A stretch of 29,154 bases of DNA from a virus, in IMG/VR virus record IMGVR_UViG_3300004369_000099, positions 1 through 29,154 of that record; one strand, written 5' to 3'. Below the pieces are notes generated by a model. It saw only the letters and a list, made by a program, of their open reading frames with translations, did no database searches and was not told where the DNA came from. Shown here in pieces: positions 5,689-19,808 of this stretch (the first letter of the stretch is position 1; the number at the start of each line of letters is the position of its first letter). The position numbers were made by a program, and so were the translations under genes.

Positions 5689-5695
5689 CACATTC

Positions 5696-5760
5696 TAAGA
5701 TTACACTTTAACTGATTATAAGATTACACTTTAACTGGTTCTAAGATTACACATTAACTG
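5696..5760 (+). repeat. Three direct repeats on a 23-bp period
   Basis: TAAGATTACACTTTAACTG occurs at 5696-5714 and 5719-5737, and with one change at 5742-5760. The starts are exactly 23 bp apart, about two helical turns, so bound proteins would lie on one face of the DNA. This fits iterons or operators upstream of the promoter at 5793. Confidence 0.85.
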
Positions 5761-5792
5761 ATACATATTGTCGCACTTACATATTATTTGTA

Positions 5793-5821
5793 TTGACAGG
5801 GGGTTGACAGTGTGGTATAAT
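5793..5821 (+). promoter_or_regulatory. Consensus sigma70 promoter for rightward arm
   Basis: TTGACA (5793-5798), 17-bp spacer, TATAAT (5816-5821): both hexamers match consensus exactly. A second TTGACA at 5804-5809 is too close to the -10 to be used. Transcription would start near 5828 and read into the gene at 6012. Repeats related to the 23-bp units flank the promoter on both sides, which suggests regulated firing. Confidence 0.85.
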
Positions 5822-5834
5822 TATAGACATAAAC

Positions 5835-5946
5835 TAGGATTACACTTAAACTGTCTACACTTAACTGCTTTATAACTTATCTATATTAATACTTAAATAT
5901 AAAAACACTTAGATAACACTTTAACTGTACAGTTAATTGAAGTGTT
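5835..5946 (+). repeat. Downstream repeat units and a perfect palindrome
   Basis: Diverged copies of the upstream unit end in AACTG at 5835-5853, 5854-5867 (short) and 5910-5927. The last runs into TTAACTGTACAGTTAA (5921-5936), a 16-bp perfect palindrome. That is framed by AACACTT (5915-5921) and AAGTGTT (5940-5946), so the unit here is present in both orientations. This lies in the transcribed leader of the rightward operon. Confidence 0.75.
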
Positions 5947-6011
5947 TCATTAACAGGTCAGTAACATGTATAATGACTTATTTGTGTTAAATAATAAGAA
6001 AGTTCTTGACA

Positions 6012-6224
6012 ATGGCAAAGAAATCCGTAAAACTATACACAGATAATGTCATAGAGGCATTCTATGATGCTATACGTAACAATTCATTAGACCGTTTGCA
6101 TATTCCCCACAGTGATGTGTACTATGTCCGTGCCGCATGTGAAGCAAGGTACGGACGTAAGTTTACGCTGAAGCATGTAGAAGAGGCAATGAGAGCAGAG
6201 GGCTGGACAGATGGAACAAATTAA
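6012..6224 (+). CDS. Small phage protein, first gene of the rightward arm
   Basis: Encodes 70 residues, MAKKSVKLYTDNVIEAFYDA and onward, with YYVRAACEARYGRKFTLKHVEEAMRAEGW. It reads as a compact helical, slightly basic protein; the second half could be a helix-turn-helix-like unit but is not a clear one. I choose ATG 6012 over a TTG 6 nt earlier. Ribosome site is weak (AAGAAAG). The stop overlaps the next ATG (TAATG). Confidence 0.7.
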   Translation: MAKKSVKLYTDNVIEAFYDAIRNNSLDRLHIPHSDVYYVRAACEARYGRKFTLKHVEEAMRAEGWTDGTN

Positions 6225-6424
6225 TGTTTACTGCCATTATCATTGCTTGCCTTGCCTCTGTGCCAGATAGCTGTATCACCTTTGCTGATAGCAGAGGTCC
6301 ATATGCTACACAGGCACAGTGCCTTAATCGCACATTAGAGATGGCTCAGTCAGCTGCTAACATAGCTGGTGAGCCTGTTCTTGTTAAACGTGGTTGTATT
6401 CCAAACAAAGGACAAAGCACATGA
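6224..6424 (+). CDS. Small possibly secreted cysteine-containing protein
   Basis: Encodes 66 residues. The N-terminus MFTAIIIACLASVPDSC looks like a short signal or export segment. A small domain with four cysteines in all (9, 17, 34 and 58 approximately) and the sequence RGPYATQAQCLNRTLEM follows. This could be a periplasmic phage protein with a disulphide. It is coupled at both ends: TAATG upstream, ATGA downstream. Function unknown. Confidence 0.65.
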   Translation: MFTAIIIACLASVPDSCITFADSRGPYATQAQCLNRTLEMAQSAANIAGEPVLVKRGCIPNKGQST

Positions 6425-6696
6425 GTATTACGTACCGTGGTGAAACATTTGCTGGTTATAATAAAGCAAAGCGTACACCGGGACATAAAACAAAATCACA
6501 TGCTGTGCTTGCCAAGGAAGGTGACACAGTTAAACTAGTTCGCTTTGGACAACAAGGCGTAAAGGGGGCTGGAAAGAGTCCTGCTACTGCCAAAGATAAG
6601 GCACGTAAAAAATCCTACTATGCACGTCACAATGCACAGGGTAAACCAACCAGTAAACTTTCTGCAAAATACTGGTCACACAAAGTCAAATGGTAA
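6421..6696 (+). CDS. Basic phage protein, DUF6321-like
   Basis: Encodes 91 residues, MSITYRGETFAGYNKAKRTP, with the central signature KLVRFGQQGVKGAGKS and a tail KARKKSYYARHN...KLSAKYWSHKVKW. This layout matches a small basic protein family common in marine phages and annotated DUF6321, recalled from memory. The role is unknown; the high positive charge suggests DNA or RNA binding, perhaps in the virion. The start overlaps the stop of the preceding gene (ATGA); an earlier in-frame codon was rejected because it lies inside that gene. Confidence 0.75.
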   Translation: MSITYRGETFAGYNKAKRTPGHKTKSHAVLAKEGDTVKLVRFGQQGVKGAGKSPATAKDKARKKSYYARHNAQGKPTSKLSAKYWSHKVKW

Positions 6697-6712
6697 TTAG
6701 GAGATACTAACA

Positions 6713-7582
6713 ATGGCTGATGTAAAACGCAAAGGTAGTATATTCTCATACGAGAATCGTGCCTTAGGCAAAACTGTTAAATACAAATTAGTTGATGGAA
6801 AGTTTTATAAAATAAAAGACGATGGAAGTCTGTCTGGTAGTTCTGTAAACAATCCCATTATTCGTGCTGCTTTAAACAAAGAGTTATCTGGAAGTGATTC
6901 CTCAATTGTAACTCGTGGTACAGGCGAAGGTGTTGCCACCAAACGTCCCGGACCGGGCATAAAACAAAAGAAACAAAAAGCACAAGAAAAAGCAATGTTT
7001 CCGTATGAATATAAAACAACGGGGTCTGATGCTTTATCCACAGAGAAACTTAAACGTACTGCGTATAGTGAGCGTAAGCCTACTACACCATCATCTGCTA
7101 TTGGACGACAGCGTACAAAGTATAAAACAGATGTAAAAGATAAAGGCGTACCTGTACCACCTAAAAAGCCTACAGAGTCTGGGCGAATTAAAATGGACGA
7201 GTTCAGTGCCTTAATGGATACTGTAAAGCCAAGAGGTACAGTGGACCAAAGTAAGAAACGTCCACCTGCTCAAGAAAGCACACCTACGTCTACACAAGCA
7301 CGTGTACGGACTAAACAAGCTAAACGTATTACTGCTGGTCCAAATGTAGGGTTTGGTCCAAAAGGTAACATCTTTCCTAGCAGTACAGAAGAACGCCGTG
7401 AGTTAATGGCTAAGTATGGTGGCACAGGAAGTGCTGCTGCTAAAGCTGCTGCTGCAGGTAGACAAGGTAACCTTACTAAGAAAGCTGCTAAAGGTGGCTA
7501 TATGAAAAAGAGTAAAGGTTCTATGGATTATCGTAAAGGCGGTATGGTAATCTCTAGTGTTGATAACAGAAAGAAAAGATAA
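6713..7582 (+). CDS. Lys-rich, low-complexity phage protein with KGG tail (A)
   Basis: Encodes 289 residues with GGAG before ATG 6713. The first 50 residues (SIFSYENRALGKTVKYKLVDG, split here) may fold as a small beta unit. The rest is basic, rich in Lys, Thr, Pro and Ala, and probably disordered. The C-terminal 30 residues (KGGYMKKSKGSMDYRKGG then SSVDNRKKR) are nearly the same as those of the next gene, and the DNA encoding them is a 98-bp direct repeat. The gene may be a structural or DNA-associated virion protein; unproven. Confidence 0.75.
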   Translation: MADVKRKGSIFSYENRALGKTVKYKLVDGKFYKIKDDGSLSGSSVNNPIIRAALNKELSGSDSSIVTRGTGEGVATKRPGPGIKQKKQKAQEKAMFPYEYKTTGSDALSTEKLKRTAYSERKPTTPSSAIGRQRTKYKTDVKDKGVPVPPKKPTESGRIKMDEFSALMDTVKPRGTVDQSKKRPPAQESTPTSTQARVRTKQAKRITAGPNVGFGPKGNIFPSSTEERRELMAKYGGTGSAAAKAAAAGRQGNLTKKAAKGGYMKKSKGSMDYRKGGMVISSVDNRKKR

Positions 7583-7587
7583 TGGCT
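7490..7587 (+). repeat. 98-bp gene-end repeat, copy 1
   Basis: Near-identical to 8362-8459, with only scattered mismatches. It covers the KGGYMKK...SSVDNRKKR tail, the stop, and the ATGGCT start of the following gene. The whole junction has been duplicated. Confidence 0.85.
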
Positions 7588-8454
7588 AACGTAGGTAAAG
7601 CAATTGTTAAAGGTGTGCGTAAACTTGCTGGTAAATCTAATAAAAGTAAAAAAGGTTTAACCAAAGCTGAACTAAAAGAAAAAACAAAGGGCAAAGCTAC
7701 ACAAGAAAATGTGCGTTTTAAAAAGAAGTATGAAGTACAAGAAGGTGCTGGTCTTGCCTCAGAAGGCGGCGGCAGTGTAAAAGCTACACGGGCTTCTGGT
7801 ACTCGTGGTGAAAAAGTTACTGTAGGCAGCAAGTCTTATACTAACTTTATTAATGACCAGATGGCTATGTTCCGTGGGAAACCAGATAGAGCATCCAGAA
7901 TAAGACGTAAATTGCTAGACAAAATTGTAGAAGCAGAACAAGCTGGAGATACTGCAGCAGTTAAAAAGCTACGTGCTGCCGCTAATAAAATGGAAGATGC
8001 AGAAATTAAAAAAGGTAAGGCAGAAGCTGCCACAACTCGCCGCAAGATTTCTTCCACTTTAAGTGGTCGTAAAAAACCAGTAGATAACTACGGTATGGCA
8101 CTTAAACAGGCAGTAGAAGATGGTGTTATTGAAAGTGAGTATACTAAAAATCTTACACCACCTCAGATGGCACAAGTTGAAAAAGCTGCTCGTAATGCTA
8201 AAAAGCCTACAGGCCGTAGAATTGTTGAGGCAGGATATGAAGAAGAAAAACGTAAACCGGGTGATAGTGCAGTAGGTCGCCGTAGTGGTTCACGTGGTAT
8301 GGCTAGTGGTATTCGTGCAGAAGACCGTGCAAGCATTAAAGACCCAATTAATAAAAGAGCCAAAGGTGGCTACATGAAAAAGAACAAAGGTTCTATGGAC
8401 TATCGTAAAGGCGGTTTGTTAATGTCTAGTGTCGATAACAGAAAGAAAAGATAA
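7582..8454 (+). CDS. Lys-rich, low-complexity phage protein with KGG tail (B)
   Basis: Encodes 290 residues, starting MANVGKAIVKGVRKLAGKSN. It is very basic, with long helical Lys/Glu/Ala segments (around residues 95-145) and no recognised domain. The body differs from the preceding gene, but the length is the same and the last 30 residues match it closely, so the pair arose by duplication or shared-tail recombination. The start overlaps the upstream stop (TAATG). Likely a virion or nucleoid-type protein by composition; that is an inference. Confidence 0.75.
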   Translation: MANVGKAIVKGVRKLAGKSNKSKKGLTKAELKEKTKGKATQENVRFKKKYEVQEGAGLASEGGGSVKATRASGTRGEKVTVGSKSYTNFINDQMAMFRGKPDRASRIRRKLLDKIVEAEQAGDTAAVKKLRAAANKMEDAEIKKGKAEAATTRRKISSTLSGRKKPVDNYGMALKQAVEDGVIESEYTKNLTPPQMAQVEKAARNAKKPTGRRIVEAGYEEEKRKPGDSAVGRRSGSRGMASGIRAEDRASIKDPINKRAKGGYMKKNKGSMDYRKGGLLMSSVDNRKKR

Positions 8455-8459
8455 TGGCT
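8362..8459 (+). repeat. 98-bp gene-end repeat, copy 2
   Basis: Second copy of the repeat at 7490-7587. It encodes the C-terminus of the 7582-8454 gene and the start of the 8454-8768 gene. Confidence 0.85.
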
Positions 8460-8768
8460 GATACAATGACAAAAAAAGAAATGGACAAGTATTATAAAGA
8501 AGAAGGTGTATATCACAAAAGTGACCCACGTCATCCTATGAATAAAGAACTTACTGGTCCATCCGTAATGATTATGTTAGGCGTTAAACCACCTAAGAAA
8601 AAACCAGCAGAGCCAAAGAAAAAGAAAAAGCCAGCAATGGCATACGGCGGTATGGCAAGTGGAAAGAAACACATGTATGTTGCTGGTGGGATGGTAAAAG
8701 ATAATCCTGGACTAAAGGCACTGAAGGCTGCAAGTCCACAGGCATACAAAAAGATTACAGGTAAGTAA
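8454..8768 (+). CDS. Lys/Pro-rich small protein with GGM motifs
   Basis: Encodes 104 residues. The N-terminal half has HKSDPRHPMNKELTGPSV and a short hydrophobic stretch (MIMLGV). A lysine/proline run (48-60) and two glycine-pair motifs, AYGGMASGKK (63-72) and VAGGMV (76-81), follow. These match the KGG/GGM element seen in other proteins of this arm. Coupled to the preceding gene by TAATG. Unknown function. Confidence 0.7.
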   Translation: MADTMTKKEMDKYYKEEGVYHKSDPRHPMNKELTGPSVMIMLGVKPPKKKPAEPKKKKKPAMAYGGMASGKKHMYVAGGMVKDNPGLKALKAASPQAYKKITGK

Positions 8769-9299
8769 TTGCATCCTGTAGAACAAGACATACGCAAATG
8801 GTCTCACGAGTTTCTTGAAGTACCTAATGCAAAGTTAAATGGACTACCGCCATGTCCATATGCGAAACAGGCATGGCTAGAGAACCAAGTTAAGTTTAGT
8901 ATTAACACGGGGCTAGATGGACTAGCTGAGTGTGTGCAGAAGTTTGAGTCCCACGAGTATGATATAGTTGTGTGGGCTTCAGAAGAATTGCCAGACATGG
9001 AATACCTAGATGGTTTCTGTGATGGCATGAACGAAGCATTATCTATTGCTGGCATTGATATGCACTTGATGGTGTTTCATCCAGACTATGACGCAACAGA
9101 AGCTGGTCTGGATTTTTTAGTAGATGACGATGTAACAGACGAAGAGTTAGTCTACTGCATGGTCTTTGTGCAGAGGTTATCATTACTTGATGATGCTTCT
9201 GTAAGTTTAGAGAAGTCAGGATATTATGCGCACTTTCCTGATGAAGTTTATCAAAGCCTAGTTATAGATAGAAGGAGACTCCGACATGGCAATGGGTAA
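8769..9299 (+). CDS. Acidic phage protein, unknown function
   Basis: Encodes 176 residues and starts with TTG directly after the previous stop; AGG about 7 nt upstream supports it, and no better ATG is near. It has LNGLPPCPYAKQAWLENQVKF (here from 23, split after KF), a GLPPCP(F/Y)A signature also found in DUF1415-type and marine phage hypothetical proteins. A mixed alpha/beta acidic body follows. The C-terminus overlaps the next small gene by 14 nt. Neighbours are structural-like, but nothing in the sequence shows its role. Confidence 0.65.
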   Translation: MHPVEQDIRKWSHEFLEVPNAKLNGLPPCPYAKQAWLENQVKFSINTGLDGLAECVQKFESHEYDIVVWASEELPDMEYLDGFCDGMNEALSIAGIDMHLMVFHPDYDATEAGLDFLVDDDVTDEELVYCMVFVQRLSLLDDASVSLEKSGYYAHFPDEVYQSLVIDRRRLRHGNG

Positions 9300-9429
9300 A
9301 GCAAAGATGGCTAAAAAGAAAATGATGATGCGAGGCGGCATGGCAAAGAAGAAGATGCGTGGCGGTGGCATGGCTAAAATGGCTAAGAAAAAGATGATGC
9401 GTGGCGGCATGGCAAAGAAAAAGAAGTAA
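9286..9429 (+). CDS. 47-residue Met/Lys/Gly repeat peptide
   Basis: The peptide is built from repeats of MAKKKMMMRGG, MAKKKMRGGG, MAKMAKKKMMRGG and MAKKKK, so about 40% of residues are Lys or Arg and there are no acids. AGAAGGAG, 9 nt before ATG 9286, is one of the strongest ribosome sites in the arm. The gene overlaps the previous one by 14 nt, and its stop overlaps the ATG of the SET-domain gene (TAATG). RGGM carries the same glycine-pair motif as other proteins nearby. It may be a DNA-binding or virion-packaged peptide; function not shown. Confidence 0.75.
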   Translation: MAMGKAKMAKKKMMMRGGMAKKKMRGGGMAKMAKKKMMRGGMAKKKK

Positions 9430-9785
9430 TGCCATATGTCGCTGATTCGTCAATACATGGACATGGTGTGTTCGCAGATAAGGGCTATTCAGTCGGAGAT
9501 ACGATTGAGTTATGCCCTTATCTCGTCACAGATGATGATGACGTGGGAGAAAATTGTGTCTTACATGACTATATGTTTCAATCACCTAATGAAGATGTTA
9601 AAGAATATTTGGTCCCACTTGGTCTCGCTATGGTCTACAATCATAGTGCAAGCCCAAACGCTGAGTGGGAAATTGATGAAGAAGATAACCGCTTTGTACG
9701 CTTCTATGCCGTGGAAGAAATAGAGCAAGGCGAAGAGATACTACACGATTATGGTGTAGATTATTGGGAAAGTAGAGATGCCTAG
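9429..9785 (+). CDS. SET-domain protein, predicted lysine methyltransferase
   Basis: Encodes 118 residues, essentially only a SET domain. The family motifs appear in order: GHGVFA (11-16), the YNHSASPNA block (70-78, the NHS-x-x-PN S-adenosylmethionine/lysine site) and GEEILHDYGVDYW (101-113, the pseudoknot GEE-x-x-x-DY-x-x-x-Y/W). SET proteins transfer methyl groups from S-adenosylmethionine to lysines. There is no pre- or post-SET cysteine cluster. The gene is translationally coupled to the lysine-rich peptide upstream and overlaps the next gene by 8 nt. The substrate is unknown; lysine-rich phage proteins next door are attractive candidates. Confidence 0.85.
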   Translation: MPYVADSSIHGHGVFADKGYSVGDTIELCPYLVTDDDDVGENCVLHDYMFQSPNEDVKEYLVPLGLAMVYNHSASPNAEWEIDEEDNRFVRFYAVEEIEQGEEILHDYGVDYWESRDA

Positions 9786-10137
9786 AATTTCCGAAGGTTC
9801 AAAGTTTGTAACACGTGCAACTGCGTTATCTACTACTTCTGATACAGATGTGTATATAGTACCAAAAAACTTTTCATCGCATGTAGAGCATTTACTAATC
9901 ACTAACAGTGATGCTAGTAATCGTAACTATACGCTTAAATATTATGAAAAAGCATCAAACACAACATACACATTGTTTACCTCACATGCAGTCACAGGTA
10001 AAGGTTCAGAATCTATTTTTACAGTAGATAAGCCTTTGTACATTCATGCTGAAGATAAAATAATTGTTGCTGCTGGAACTGCAGACACACTTACTGTAGT
10101 TATTGCAGCAGAAGAATTTTTTGACCCAACCCGATAG
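9778..10137 (+). CDS. Beta-rich probable virion protein
   Basis: Encodes 119 residues, MPRISEGSKFVTRATALST, with regular Ser/Thr-rich strands (DVYIVPKNFSSHVEHLLITN, NYTLKYYEK, KIIVAAGTADTLTVVIAAEE). The composition and strand pattern suggest a small beta-sandwich of virion type, such as a decoration or fibre-base protein. It overlaps the SET gene by 8 nt. No specific family recognised. Confidence 0.65.
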   Translation: MPRISEGSKFVTRATALSTTSDTDVYIVPKNFSSHVEHLLITNSDASNRNYTLKYYEKASNTTYTLFTSHAVTGKGSESIFTVDKPLYIHAEDKIIVAAGTADTLTVVIAAEEFFDPTR

Positions 10138-10147
10138 GAGATAGGAG

Positions 10148-10429
10148 ATGGTACGTGTCTCTAAAAAAACCCCCGCAAAAAAGAAAGCCACACAAGCTAG
10201 AGCGAAAACGAAACAGGCTAGAACGGTTAAACTTTCAACGGGCGGTGCGCCAAAGAGCAAAAGTAGAGTTAATGAAGCTGGCAACTACACTAAGCCAACC
10301 ATGAGAAAAAGATTATTTGAAAAGATTAAAGCTGGCAGCAAGGGTGGTAAACCCGGACAGTGGTCAGCACGTAAGGCGCAGATGTTAGCACGTGAATATA
10401 AGGCAGCAGGTGGAGGCTATAAGTCATAA
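10148..10429 (+). CDS. Basic phage protein, DUF5872-like
   Basis: Encodes 93 residues with GGAG just before ATG 10148. The N-terminal half is a Lys/Arg/Ala tail. The C-terminal half reads MRKRLFEKIKAGSKGGKPGQ then WSARKAQMLAREYKAAGGGY. That block matches a short conserved domain I know as DUF5872, found in phage and other genomes, function unknown. Its arginine/lysine content fits nucleic-acid contact. The next gene starts 4 nt after the stop. Confidence 0.75.
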   Translation: MVRVSKKTPAKKKATQARAKTKQARTVKLSTGGAPKSKSRVNEAGNYTKPTMRKRLFEKIKAGSKGGKPGQWSARKAQMLAREYKAAGGGYKS

Positions 10430-10661: not shown

Positions 10662-11108
10662 ATGTTAGCAGAACTAGCCGCTGCTAACGCAGCCTTCGGA
10701 GTAATTAAACAAGCAGTAGCCAACGGACGTGACATTGCAAGTGTTGGTAGTCAGATTGTTAAGTTTGTAGATGGCAAAGAAGAATTACAAAGAAAAGTAA
10801 CAAATAAAAAGAATAGCCCATTCTATAGAGGCAATGACTTTGAAGAGTTTATGGCTCTTGAAGTCATCAAAGAAAAAGAAGAAGAACTAAAACAAATAAT
10901 GTTATATGTAGGTCGTCCGGGATTATGGAACGACTGGCAGAAGTTTCAAGCAGAAGCACGTAAGGCCAGACTAGAAGCAGAAGAAGCTGCACGTAAACGT
11001 AAACAGAAAATACTAGAAACAATTATATTATCTCTGGCGTGTATCATAGGGCTTAGTGTTCTTGCTATTGTAATATACTTCGGACTAAAACGCAGAGGAA
11101 TGTTTTAA
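10662..11108 (+). CDS. Helical protein with C-terminal membrane anchor
   Basis: Encodes 148 residues and starts directly after the previous stop. Residues 60-115 are charged and helical (KEKEEELKQIMLYVGRPGLW, then QAEARKARLEAEEAARKRKQ). A single hydrophobic segment, about 119-142 (TIILSLACIIGLSVLAIVIYF), ends in KRRGMF. The cytoplasmic coiled domain with a C-tail anchor resembles small proteins placed before lysis genes in marine phages. It could be a lysis accessory protein or a virion/membrane protein; it lacks the N-terminal anchor of a classical inner spanin. Confidence 0.7.
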   Translation: MLAELAAANAAFGVIKQAVANGRDIASVGSQIVKFVDGKEELQRKVTNKKNSPFYRGNDFEEFMALEVIKEKEEELKQIMLYVGRPGLWNDWQKFQAEARKARLEAEEAARKRKQKILETIILSLACIIGLSVLAIVIYFGLKRRGMF

Positions 11109-11350
11109 TGAAAAAGCCACAGAAAAGTCTAGTAGCATGGACAAAACAGAAGTGGCGCACAAAAAGTGGCAAGCCATCTGGACAGACAGGTGAAAGGTAT
11201 TTACCTGAAAAAGCAATAAAGTCCTTGACAAGCGCAGAGTATTCTGCTACAACTAAAGCCAAACGAGAAGGTACACGTGCAGGAAAACAATTTGTACGAC
11301 AGCCGAAGCGAATTGCAAAGAAGACTGCACAGTTTCGCAGAGGAACTTAA
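11108..11350 (+). CDS. Basic phage protein, conserved type
   Basis: Encodes 80 residues containing LVAWTKQKWRTKSGKPSGQT, GERYLPEKAIKSLTSAEY and a Lys/Arg-rich tail ending QFRRGT. I associate this WTKQKWRTKSGKPS...GERYLPE pattern with small proteins recurring across marine phages, function unknown. The start overlaps the previous stop (TAATG). Confidence 0.75.
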   Translation: MKKPQKSLVAWTKQKWRTKSGKPSGQTGERYLPEKAIKSLTSAEYSATTKAKREGTRAGKQFVRQPKRIAKKTAQFRRGT

Positions 11351-17184: not shown

Positions 17185-17320
17185 CTACTTAGATAGTTTG
17201 ATTGAGCAACAACATAGAACGCTAGAGCAAGGTGACAATTCAATTTTAATGCATCGTGCGCAAGGTGCAGTTGCAGTATTACGTAGCTTACAAAAACTAA
17301 GGGATGCAGTAGATGGCTGA
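17150..17320 (+). CDS. Small helical protein after portal
   Basis: Encodes 56 residues: MVSNKRQWDHFSNYLDSLIE and QQHRTLEQGDNSILMHRAQG, then a final leucine-rich helix. The frame is longer upstream, but the extra part lies in the portal's low-complexity tail, and ATG 17150 gives a W-x-x-F-x-x-YLD start typical of small proteins placed beside portals in marine phages. It overlaps the portal end by 35 nt and the next gene by 8. Possible head-completion accessory; not proven. Confidence 0.65.
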   Translation, partial: VSNKRQWDHFSNYLDSLIEQQHRTLEQGDNSILMHRAQGAVAVLRSLQKLRDAVDG

Positions 17321-19808
17321 CGTTAATAGTTCAATAGATTATGAAGATAAAATTATATCTGATGAAGTACGCCGTAAAATGGATGCTGCGGTAAAAAAAG
17401 CAGAAGAAGAAGGAATTGAAATAGAATCTGAATACTACACAGGTAGTGATTTAGATAAAATGAAAGAACTTGCTAGATTAAATGATATAGGTGTTATAAC
17501 TGGTCCTTTTGCTGATTTTGGACGTGGTGTAAATATTCCACGTACTCCAACTTTATTTAATTTATTTGCTATGGAAGAAGAACTTTCACATAATCGAGAG
17601 GCTGAACGCTTGCGTTCTCTGTTCTCACCAGAAGGACCCGATATAAACGAAGGTAAATTTACTGTTAATGACTATAAAGCAAATCCAGCAAAAGCATTAA
17701 AAATTATTAAAGCTCGTTATGATGAAGAAAAAAGAGCTAAAAAAGAAGCCTTACAAAGAACAGGTGGTCTTTTGCCTAAAGGACAAAGAACAGTAGAATT
17801 AACGAAAAATACATATGCAGAAATGTTTAAGGATGCTATAGATAGATATGTTAAAAAAACAGGTGATATAGAAACTAAAAAAGTATTACTTAATGATTAT
17901 CCTGAATTAAAAAATGTAAAAAAAATTATATACCCAGAAGGGGACTTACCATTTAATAAAGGAGGAGTAGTACCTATGGAAAAACAAATGGAAATGTTTG
18001 AAAACGGTGGTCTTATGCAGGAAGGTGGCACAACAGACCCTGTGTCTGGTAACGATGTACCAGTTGGCTCTACACAAGAAGAAGTACGAGATGACATTCC
18101 TGCACAGTTAAGTGAAGGTGAATTTGTTTTTCCTGCTGATGTAGTTCGTTTCTATGGACTAGAGAAGTTAATGGAGATGCGGCAACGTGCTAAAGCTGGT
18201 CTACAGATGATGGAAGACATGGGTCAGATGGGTAATAGCGAAGAAGCTACACTGCCTGATGATATTCCTTTTGATTTAGAAGACCTTGATATGGAAGATG
18301 AGCCAGAGTATAATATGGCTGTTGGTGGTTTTATACAGCCACAAGCAGGTTATGGTACGACTTTAATGCAACCAACGCAACCTATGATGCAACCTTCTAT
18401 GTTTGCTAACTATGCACAGCAACCTGCAACACAACCTGTATTTCAACCTGTACAACAGCAACAGCAACAACCTGTAGCACCTACTTATACTGCTCCTACG
18501 TATACAGGTCCAAGTTTTCAACAGTTACTTCCTACCACTACAGGGCAGTATGACGAAATGAAAACATATGTTAATGCTGCAGGAGAAGAAAGAGTAATTC
18601 CATTTGTTAATGGTCAACCTATTTATCCTATTCCTGCAGGGTTTACTTTAAAAGAAGAAGCAGCTAAAGCTGTAGAAGAAGCACCAACTGCTGTAACAAC
18701 TAAAACTGCTAAAGTAGCTGACCGTGGTGGTAGAGATGATGGTGATACTCCTTCGGGTGCAACTATGTCATTTGGTGGCACAGTAGACCCAAAAACAGGT
18801 TTAGTAAACAATGCTATTACTGCTAATCTTTCTTATAGTGGTATACCGCGTGGCTTCATGGGGGTAGGTAGTGCTGTAGCAAGTATGTTTGGATTTGGAG
18901 ATGGTATTTCGTTAAAGGAAGGTCAAACCGCTACTATTGATTCTTCTACTATGGGAAATACAACAATTACTTTTGACGCAGATTCTTTTAATAAATTAAA
19001 TAAAACAACAGTTACTTCTAAAGAAAGAGCAGAAGTAAAATCAATAATGGAAACTGTAGGTAAAGTTTTAGGTAATTCAAAATACAAAAACGAGTTAACT
19101 TTTAAAGAAGCAAAAGATATACATGATGGTTATGACAGTGATTTAGGTATGTCTGTTGGTTATGGTAAAGGACAAGTAGACCCTAGTCTTGCTGCGGCTG
19201 TTGCAATATCAAAAGGAATAAACCCATCAGATAAAGGATTACCAGATACAAGTAAAGATACAAGTAAACCCGATACATCAAAAACTTCCACTACTTCTCC
19301 CGGTTTTGGTGATGTCAGCAAAAGTGGTACATCCACTACTCCGGGTGATAGAGATGGTGGTATGAGTGGTCGTGACAGTTCTGATAATGACAGTTCAAGT
19401 GGCTCAAGTTGTTTTGCGGCAGGTACTAAATTTATTATGGAAGATGAAACAACTAAAAACATTGAAGACATTAAGATTGGTGATAAACTTAAATTTGGTG
19501 GACGTGTATATTCAACAATTCAAGGCGATGGTCTTATTGAAACTTGGTATAATTATGGAACTACTAAAGTTACTGGAAATCATGCTATATTTGAAAATGG
19601 TGAATGGAAACGTGTTAAGGATGCTAAAGAAGCAATTCCTGCCCTACATAAAGAAGAAATTCTTTATACTCTCATTAACGAAAACCATAGAATGGTTGCA
19701 GAAGATGGAGTTATCTACACAGACTATGATGAAGTTGATAATAAAGGAATTGAAGAAGATTTGCTCATTCAACTTAATGGGCAAAGTGCTGAAGCAACAG
19801 CAGCATAA
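17313..19808 (+). CDS. Large structural-type protein ending in a Hint domain
   Basis: Encodes 831 residues. An N-terminal helical region (1-215) ends in PFNKGGVV. A block common in marine phage structural proteins follows, roughly 222-330 (NGGLMQEGG, then DDIPAQLSEGEFVFPADVVR, then FYGLEKLMEMRQRAK). Then come a Gln/Pro/Thr-rich segment, a beta-like region, and a Ser/Gly/Thr/Asp-rich linker to 699. Residues 700-831 are a Hint (Hedgehog/intein) domain starting at Cys700: CFAAGTKF, IEDIKIGDKL, then T754-x-x-H757 in KVTGNHAIF. No C-terminal HN splice site exists, so self-cleavage rather than splicing is predicted. The gene lies between portal and scaffold. Confidence 0.8.
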   Translation: MADVNSSIDYEDKIISDEVRRKMDAAVKKAEEEGIEIESEYYTGSDLDKMKELARLNDIGVITGPFADFGRGVNIPRTPTLFNLFAMEEELSHNREAERLRSLFSPEGPDINEGKFTVNDYKANPAKALKIIKARYDEEKRAKKEALQRTGGLLPKGQRTVELTKNTYAEMFKDAIDRYVKKTGDIETKKVLLNDYPELKNVKKIIYPEGDLPFNKGGVVPMEKQMEMFENGGLMQEGGTTDPVSGNDVPVGSTQEEVRDDIPAQLSEGEFVFPADVVRFYGLEKLMEMRQRAKAGLQMMEDMGQMGNSEEATLPDDIPFDLEDLDMEDEPEYNMAVGGFIQPQAGYGTTLMQPTQPMMQPSMFANYAQQPATQPVFQPVQQQQQQPVAPTYTAPTYTGPSFQQLLPTTTGQYDEMKTYVNAAGEERVIPFVNGQPIYPIPAGFTLKEEAAKAVEEAPTAVTTKTAKVADRGGRDDGDTPSGATMSFGGTVDPKTGLVNNAITANLSYSGIPRGFMGVGSAVASMFGFGDGISLKEGQTATIDSSTMGNTTITFDADSFNKLNKTTVTSKERAEVKSIMETVGKVLGNSKYKNELTFKEAKDIHDGYDSDLGMSVGYGKGQVDPSLAAAVAISKGINPSDKGLPDTSKDTSKPDTSKTSTTSPGFGDVSKSGTSTTPGDRDGGMSGRDSSDNDSSSGSSCFAAGTKFIMEDETTKNIEDIKIGDKLKFGGRVYSTIQGDGLIETWYNYGTTKVTGNHAIFENGEWKRVKDAKEAIPALHKEEILYTLINENHRMVAEDGVIYTDYDEVDNKGIEEDLLIQLNGQSAEATAA
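17960..17978 (+). promoter_or_regulatory. Internal ribosome site and in-frame ATG
   Basis: AGGAGGAG is followed after 8 nt by an ATG at 17976, in frame with the 831-residue gene (residue 222, MEKQMEMFENGG). It is a better ribosome site than that of the annotated start at 17313. A second product of 610 residues is predicted. Confidence 0.55.
19410..19808 (+). other. Hint domain coding segment (residues 700-831)
   Basis: The domain begins at the TGT codon of Cys700, preceded by SSGSS. It has an intein block A (CFAAGTK, with IEDIKIGD) and block B (T754-G-N-H757). It stops at the end of the protein with IQLNGQSAEATAA. In this family the cysteine attacks its own peptide bond with the help of the block B histidine, giving a thioester and N-terminal cleavage or transfer to a nucleophile. 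Confidence 0.8.

Follow-up and report, generated by a model that had tools for sequence, protein, structure and literature searches.

The window, the whole stretch of 29,154 nucleotides analysed here (IMG/VR record IMGVR_UViG_3300004369_000099, a partial contig), contains a gene for a short lysine-rich peptide and, directly behind it, a gene for a stand-alone SET-domain protein; Table 1 gives the positions of these genes and of their neighbours. The phage is of the HMO-2011 type: its capsid, terminase and portal are related to those of HMO-2011, its major capsid protein shares 89.5% identity with that of Puniceispirillum phage HMO-2011, and a 25-kb window query matches the HMO-2011 genome over 39% of its length, terminase and portal included, at 77.7%. 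Isolates of this type infect SAR116, Roseobacter and SAR11 bacteria, and the type is marked by a DNA polymerase with an inserted DnaJ-like central domain (PMC9038755).

Table 1. Features at and around the peptide and SET genes, in window positions.
Feature	Position	Strand	Basis
Basic protein, net +18	6424-6696
Basic 289-aa protein, net +38	6713..7582	+
Basic 290-aa protein, net +39, C-terminal KGGYMKKNKGSMDYRKGGLLM	7582..8454	+
Basic protein, net +15, GGM motifs; possible alternative substrate	8454..8768	+
Acidic protein, net -22, phrog_28122; immediate upstream neighbour, overlaps the peptide gene by 14 nt	8769..9299	+
47-aa lysine-rich repeat peptide (MAKKK / MRGGM units), core gene	9286..9429	+	ORF, conservation at locus
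Stand-alone SET-domain protein-lysine methyltransferase (predicted), 118 aa, net -23	9429..9785	+	PF00856, vSET match, predicted fold, motifs
SET cofactor-binding motif HGHGVFA, residues 10-16	9456..9476	+	aligns with vSET GGYGVFA
SET motif YNHSASPNA, residues 70-78, NHxxxPN signature	9636..9662	+	aligns with vSET FNHSKDPNA
SET C-terminal motif EILHDYGVDYW, residues 103-113	9735..9767	+	aligns with vSET EITISYGDDYW
Gene downstream of SET, weak phrog_1276 match	9778..10137	+
Basic 93-aa protein, net +24, phrog_17747	10148..10429	+
Basic protein, net +19	11108-11350

The peptide, MAMGKAKMAKKKMMMRGGMAKKKMRGGGMAKMAKKKMMRGGMAKKKK, has the N-terminal motif GKAKMAKKK, a net charge of +19 and a pI of 12; lysine makes up 34% of its residues, and its DNA is a degenerate 30-bp tandem repeat (9315-9424). 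The first-pass annotation had proposed a 47-residue lysine-rich repeat peptide here, similar in composition to a histone tail: the reading frame is indeed present, and it contains no acidic residue at all. Its MxGG repeats may resemble adenovirus protease sites and the core peptide mu. A tblastn search of 'phages' with the 47 residues returned no match, with the low-complexity filter on, so that absence is not implied.

The second gene had been described as a stand-alone SET domain with intact catalytic motifs, a description that is borne out. The Pfam SET profile, PF00856, matches the protein with 45.2 bits (cut-off 22.4) over profile positions 1-105 of 105, and the best solved relative is vSET of chlorella virus PBCV-1 (1n3j), with an E-value of 3.7e-16. 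The protein is minimal: the domain fills the whole reading frame, there are no pre-SET or post-SET cysteine clusters, and the C-terminus has the form YGxxYW. The three motifs (GxG, NHxxxPN and ELxxDYG-type) are invariant in 23 phage homologues and mostly conserved in chromosomal ones; the invariant residues are H10, G11, G13, V14, F15 and A16 in the first, Y70, N71, H72, P76, N77 and A78 in the second, and E103, I104, H106, D107, Y108, G109, Y112 and W113 in the third, where Tyr108 is the residue that we take to be the catalytic tyrosine.

An AlphaFold2 model of a monomer was built on a relative in which peptide and SET are read through in frame (L020; alignment of 41 rows). Its SET part, residues 61-170, has block pLDDT values of 83-97 and superposes on 4rz0 (PFL0690c) with a Z-score of 14.0 and on vSET with a Z-score of 13.4, at 2.3 A over 103 residues; SET modelled on its own, with an alignment of 23 close rows, gave a poor result, with a pLDDT of 66.5. 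The peptide part of the L020 model is of low confidence (pLDDT 41-53), and the model consequently gives no support to a docking of peptide and SET. Taken together, motifs and predicted fold make it very likely that the window protein functions as a lysine methyltransferase. Its charge, -23, is opposite to that of the peptide; the mean net charge is -20 for phage SETs versus -15 for chromosomal ones.

The stop of the peptide gene and the start of the SET gene share one base, in the sequence TAATG. This overlap, reported in the first-pass annotation, is present but not distinctive: six of 22 listed junctions in the window are alike, and among the 91 relatives without SET there are at least 37, L089 for example, in which the end of the peptide gene is joined by the same kind of overlap to the start of another gene. 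Such overlaps being general in the operon, translational coupling was rejected as evidence that the two genes form a pair. The expectation that further lysine-rich proteins lie nearby fares better, with six strongly basic ones, of net charge +15 to +39, within 5 kb. Two of them, encoded at 6713-7582 and 7582-8454, have near-identical C-termini (AKGGYMKKxKGSMDYRKGG...SSVDNRKKR), which suggests a tail that is shared or duplicated. The acidic upstream neighbour has weak Pfam matches (DUF6875, 0.047; DUF1415, 0.00057 in one member of phrog_28122). That this acidic protein and the basic peptide might be a toxin-antitoxin pair was considered and set aside. In some relatives, the same small-gene region carries genes for Rieske-type oxygenases (L059, 939-2012; L214, which is HMO-2011, 6359-7441), the one in HMO-2011 being annotated as a methanesulfonate monooxygenase.

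Other parts of the window hold a few features of their own. The palindrome GTCCAAYRTTGGAC occurs in five exact copies, at 2143, 3371, 4168, 4660 and 5287, versus 0.01 expected from shuffling; all lie in the leftward-transcribed arm, and the palindrome is possibly an operator or another protein-binding site. Between the divergent gene blocks there is a 23-bp tandem repeat (3.1 copies, 5692-5762), with scattered ACACTTTAACTG-like copies at about 5690-5930; these are candidate iterons of an origin or an operator. At 17313-19808, an 831-residue protein is encoded whose C-terminal part starts like a Hint domain, of intein type, with PF05203 below its cut-off.

Searches with the SET protein and with a SET profile retrieved more than 100 contigs, nearly all of which have a lysine-rich MRGGM/MAKKK peptide directly upstream. 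An independent search with phrog_28122 yielded 80 loci, with the peptide in all of them and SET in 30. The two phrog_28122 searches, de-duplicated and limited to loci with sufficient downstream sequence, give 174 comparable loci, a set gathered partly through SET in which counts are not prevalences: the peptide is present in 173, versus 82 for SET, and in 91 the peptide is present with no SET nearby. The peptide is thus a core gene and SET an accessory gene; and, since a peptide of the same type recurs at the same place in nearly every locus, the reading frame is not due to chance. The phrog_28122 product is the constant partner of the peptide: in the 174-locus count this constancy is there by selection, the loci having been chosen by phrog_28122, and it is also seen in the SET-based searches. 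The records of the isolates HMO-2011 and CRP-345 contain the peptide and gave no SET match, and no isolate of this phage type with SET was among the matches.

Where SET is present, it starts 0-3 nucleotides past the peptide stop in 83 of 84 loci; in the exception, L056, the peptide is found one gene upstream of SET. The first-pass annotation had asked whether the pair is conserved together, and more than 80 distinct phage loci do keep the arrangement. Its proposal of an enzyme and its substrate draws strength from this spacing and loses some to the 91 loci without SET, which lead us to reject the peptide as a partner specific to SET.

On a tree of phrog_28122 DNA, the presence of SET changes 13 times, at least seven of them on well-supported branches. 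In the close pair L097 (with SET) and L089 (without), which are 97% identical upstream, SET is inserted precisely where the peptide stop would meet the gene that follows, and the pair L095/L136 has the same clean insertion behind the peptide stop. Many loci without SET have other small genes in the slot, often for a 39-46-aa hydrophobic/basic-rich peptide; in some (L075 and L135, for example), the counterpart of the window gene at 9778-10137 directly follows the peptide. In L062 and L063, near 6001-6075, the first 25 codons of SET remain, followed by a stop, a sign that SET was lost in that lineage. In a tree of SET proteins, the 74 sequences from phages group in a single clade (SH-aLRT 95.8), next to the 16 from bacteria, which leaves repeated independent capture unsupported. 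The outgroups of this tree are long and weakly placed, so that the direction of transfer between bacterium and phage is something we can only infer.

The type of peptide varies with the presence of SET. The motif GKAKMAK is found in 74 of the 82 SET-linked peptides, eight lacking it, versus none of the 91 SET-less ones, whose N-termini read GKTKMASKK, VAKKK, GHKMKAAKKK and the like. Similarly, MMGG occurs in 69% of distinct SET-linked peptides versus 0% of SET-less ones, and KKKK in 90% versus 21%. When independent pairs are compared on the phrog_28122 tree, GKAKMAK goes with SET in five to six of seven and the opposite never happens, giving a median sign-test p of 0.03 that must be taken as indicative, the motif having been picked after viewing the SET-linked peptides. 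KKKK and MMGG show the same pattern; the number of lysines covaries more weakly (3.4 to 0.1 of seven pairs, median p 0.25) and was set aside. Among phages with SET, the divergence of the peptide follows that of SET no better than phrog_28122 predicts (partial r 0.05), a distance-matrix comparison that is uninformative for a peptide of low complexity. At the level of sequence, the covariation would fit either an adaptation of the peptide as substrate, or a transfer of peptide and SET together as one segment.

We are inclined, with definite reservations, to conjecture that the adjoining core basic peptide, a plausible target, is the substrate of SET, a methyltransferase of bacterial type that this phage group gained in effect a single time. 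The peptide does not need methylation, since it is kept without SET in the 91 loci and in HMO-2011. We are more doubtful of a chromatin-like phage system, in which a dedicated accessory SET would methylate a core peptide resembling a histone tail, and in which the recognition sequence GKAKMAKKK would have coevolved wherever the enzyme is present.

It is also rather unlikely, in our opinion, that SET is a host-related auxiliary gene acting on a substrate of the bacterium, such as a protein of the nucleoid or of translation, with the slot behind the peptide simply permissive. Several findings agree with such a role. A chromosomal homologue with 61% identity is found in an alphaproteobacterial metagenome-assembled genome (L216), close homologues are on the chromosomes of 54 of 136 genomes of the same order, and none of the 15 chromosomal loci examined has a lysine-rich ORF within 300 bp; these chromosomal genes (L216, L303-L317) stand in at least two types of neighbourhood. 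Our guess is that the order is SAR116, which would fit the phage group. The phage SETs form their single clade beside the chromosomal ones, and the slot accepts other small genes when SET is missing. More distant SETs exist in unrelated phages, namely Menderavirus phages of Stenotrophomonas, two of which were inspected and have no lysine-rich repeat peptide adjoining SET, and one 735-kb phage, where a lysine-rich repeat neighbour is likewise absent. The first-pass annotation had held that phages with SET and no lysine-rich partner would speak against the pair; these few phages do so in part, and together with the chromosomal genes they imply that SET is not confined to its pairing with the peptide. 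However, an auxiliary role alone leaves two things unexplained: that the peptide switches type along with SET on branches independent of each other, and that SET is so consistently placed right behind it.

The covariation could, in turn, arise with no functional link at all, if SET and the adjoining peptide allele were exchanged together by recombination within a variable region and the signature were due to hitchhiking, an explanation that we consider improbable. In the two closest pairs with and without SET, the peptide ORFs are 91% and 81% identical, versus 97% and 95% for the upstream gene, a difference that fits import with SET as well as substrate adaptation, and the repeats in the peptide DNA invite recombination. 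However, the peptides of L097 and L089 can be aligned over their whole length, their differences being dispersed substitutions and changes of repeat units, with no clear boundary of import, and the strongest signature is at the N-terminus of the peptide, which is farthest from SET. Least probable, and to our minds quite improbable, is that the targets are other lysine-rich phage proteins (8454-8768, 10148-10429, 7582-8454, 6713-7582 and 11108-11350, possibly virion or DNA-binding proteins) and not the 47-residue peptide: basic proteins abound within 5 kb, but covariation with SET was compared for the peptide alone.

If SET does act on the adjoining peptide, the sequence of events might be the following. 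A vSET-type enzyme, related to an alphaproteobacterial chromosomal gene, would have entered the HMO-2011-type phages in effect once, and its gene would now come and go at the site just behind the core gene for the lysine-rich peptide. Both being translated from one message, the acidic SET would meet a nascent, disordered and strongly basic peptide, and could methylate some of its lysines, perhaps also those of the neighbouring basic proteins. Methylation might then tune the binding of the peptide to DNA, or to other acidic partners, while the phage assembles or takes over the host. The activity of SET, its substrate, the binding of the peptide to DNA and the biological effect are, in this scheme, what we infer.

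Several known systems can be set beside this one. The vSET protein (A612L) of chlorella virus PBCV-1 is a methyltransferase of histone H3 lysine 27 whose activity requires a homodimer. It is also a stand-alone SET, of about 119 residues, and shares the GxGVFA, NHSxxPNA and YGxDYW motifs with the window protein, but its target is histone H3 of a eukaryotic host, whereas there is no histone in the present system, and its charge over the stretch compared is about +1 as against -23. Go1-SET of Methanosarcina mazei, set beside the window protein by its description, is a prokaryotic SET that methylates a small DNA-binding protein, the archaeal MC1-alpha (PMC3980110); unlike the window SET, which comes from a phage, it is cellular. 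One study saw no methylation of the histone-like Hc1 by NUE of C. trachomatis, and a homologue in C. pneumoniae is reported to carry it out (PMC2904774). The precedents for SETs acting on such proteins are mixed.

Closer to the window, the chromosomal alphaproteobacterial SETs are the nearest relatives outside phages, similar in length and motifs, but they have no lysine-rich neighbour in the 15 loci examined and are less acidic than the phage SETs. The Menderavirus SETs (Moby gp259 and Ps15 ORF62) are encoded by phages, as is the window SET, but are only 26-29% identical to it. HMO-2011 itself has, in the same place, a 50-residue counterpart of the peptide, MKGKTKMASKKMMRGG..., at 4018-4170 of L214, between gp66 and gp65, unannotated in the public record NC_021864; it reads GKTKMASKK where the window peptide has GKAKMAKKK, and the next gene encodes a virion structural protein, not SET. 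Phage SET domains have already been annotated (PMC9025141), and annotated SET proteins are also found in other uncultured Caudovirales phages; in our literature search, phage SET domains were mentioned as annotation only.

Should the peptide be the substrate, an abundant group of marine phages would have at this locus its own counterpart of histone-tail methylation, and the natural pairs with and without the enzyme, L097/L089 and L095/L136, make the effect of SET directly testable. Should it not be the substrate, a lysine methyltransferase would still be common to these phages and to an alphaproteobacterial order, and the finding would point to a bacterial SET enzyme that is of interest in its own right.
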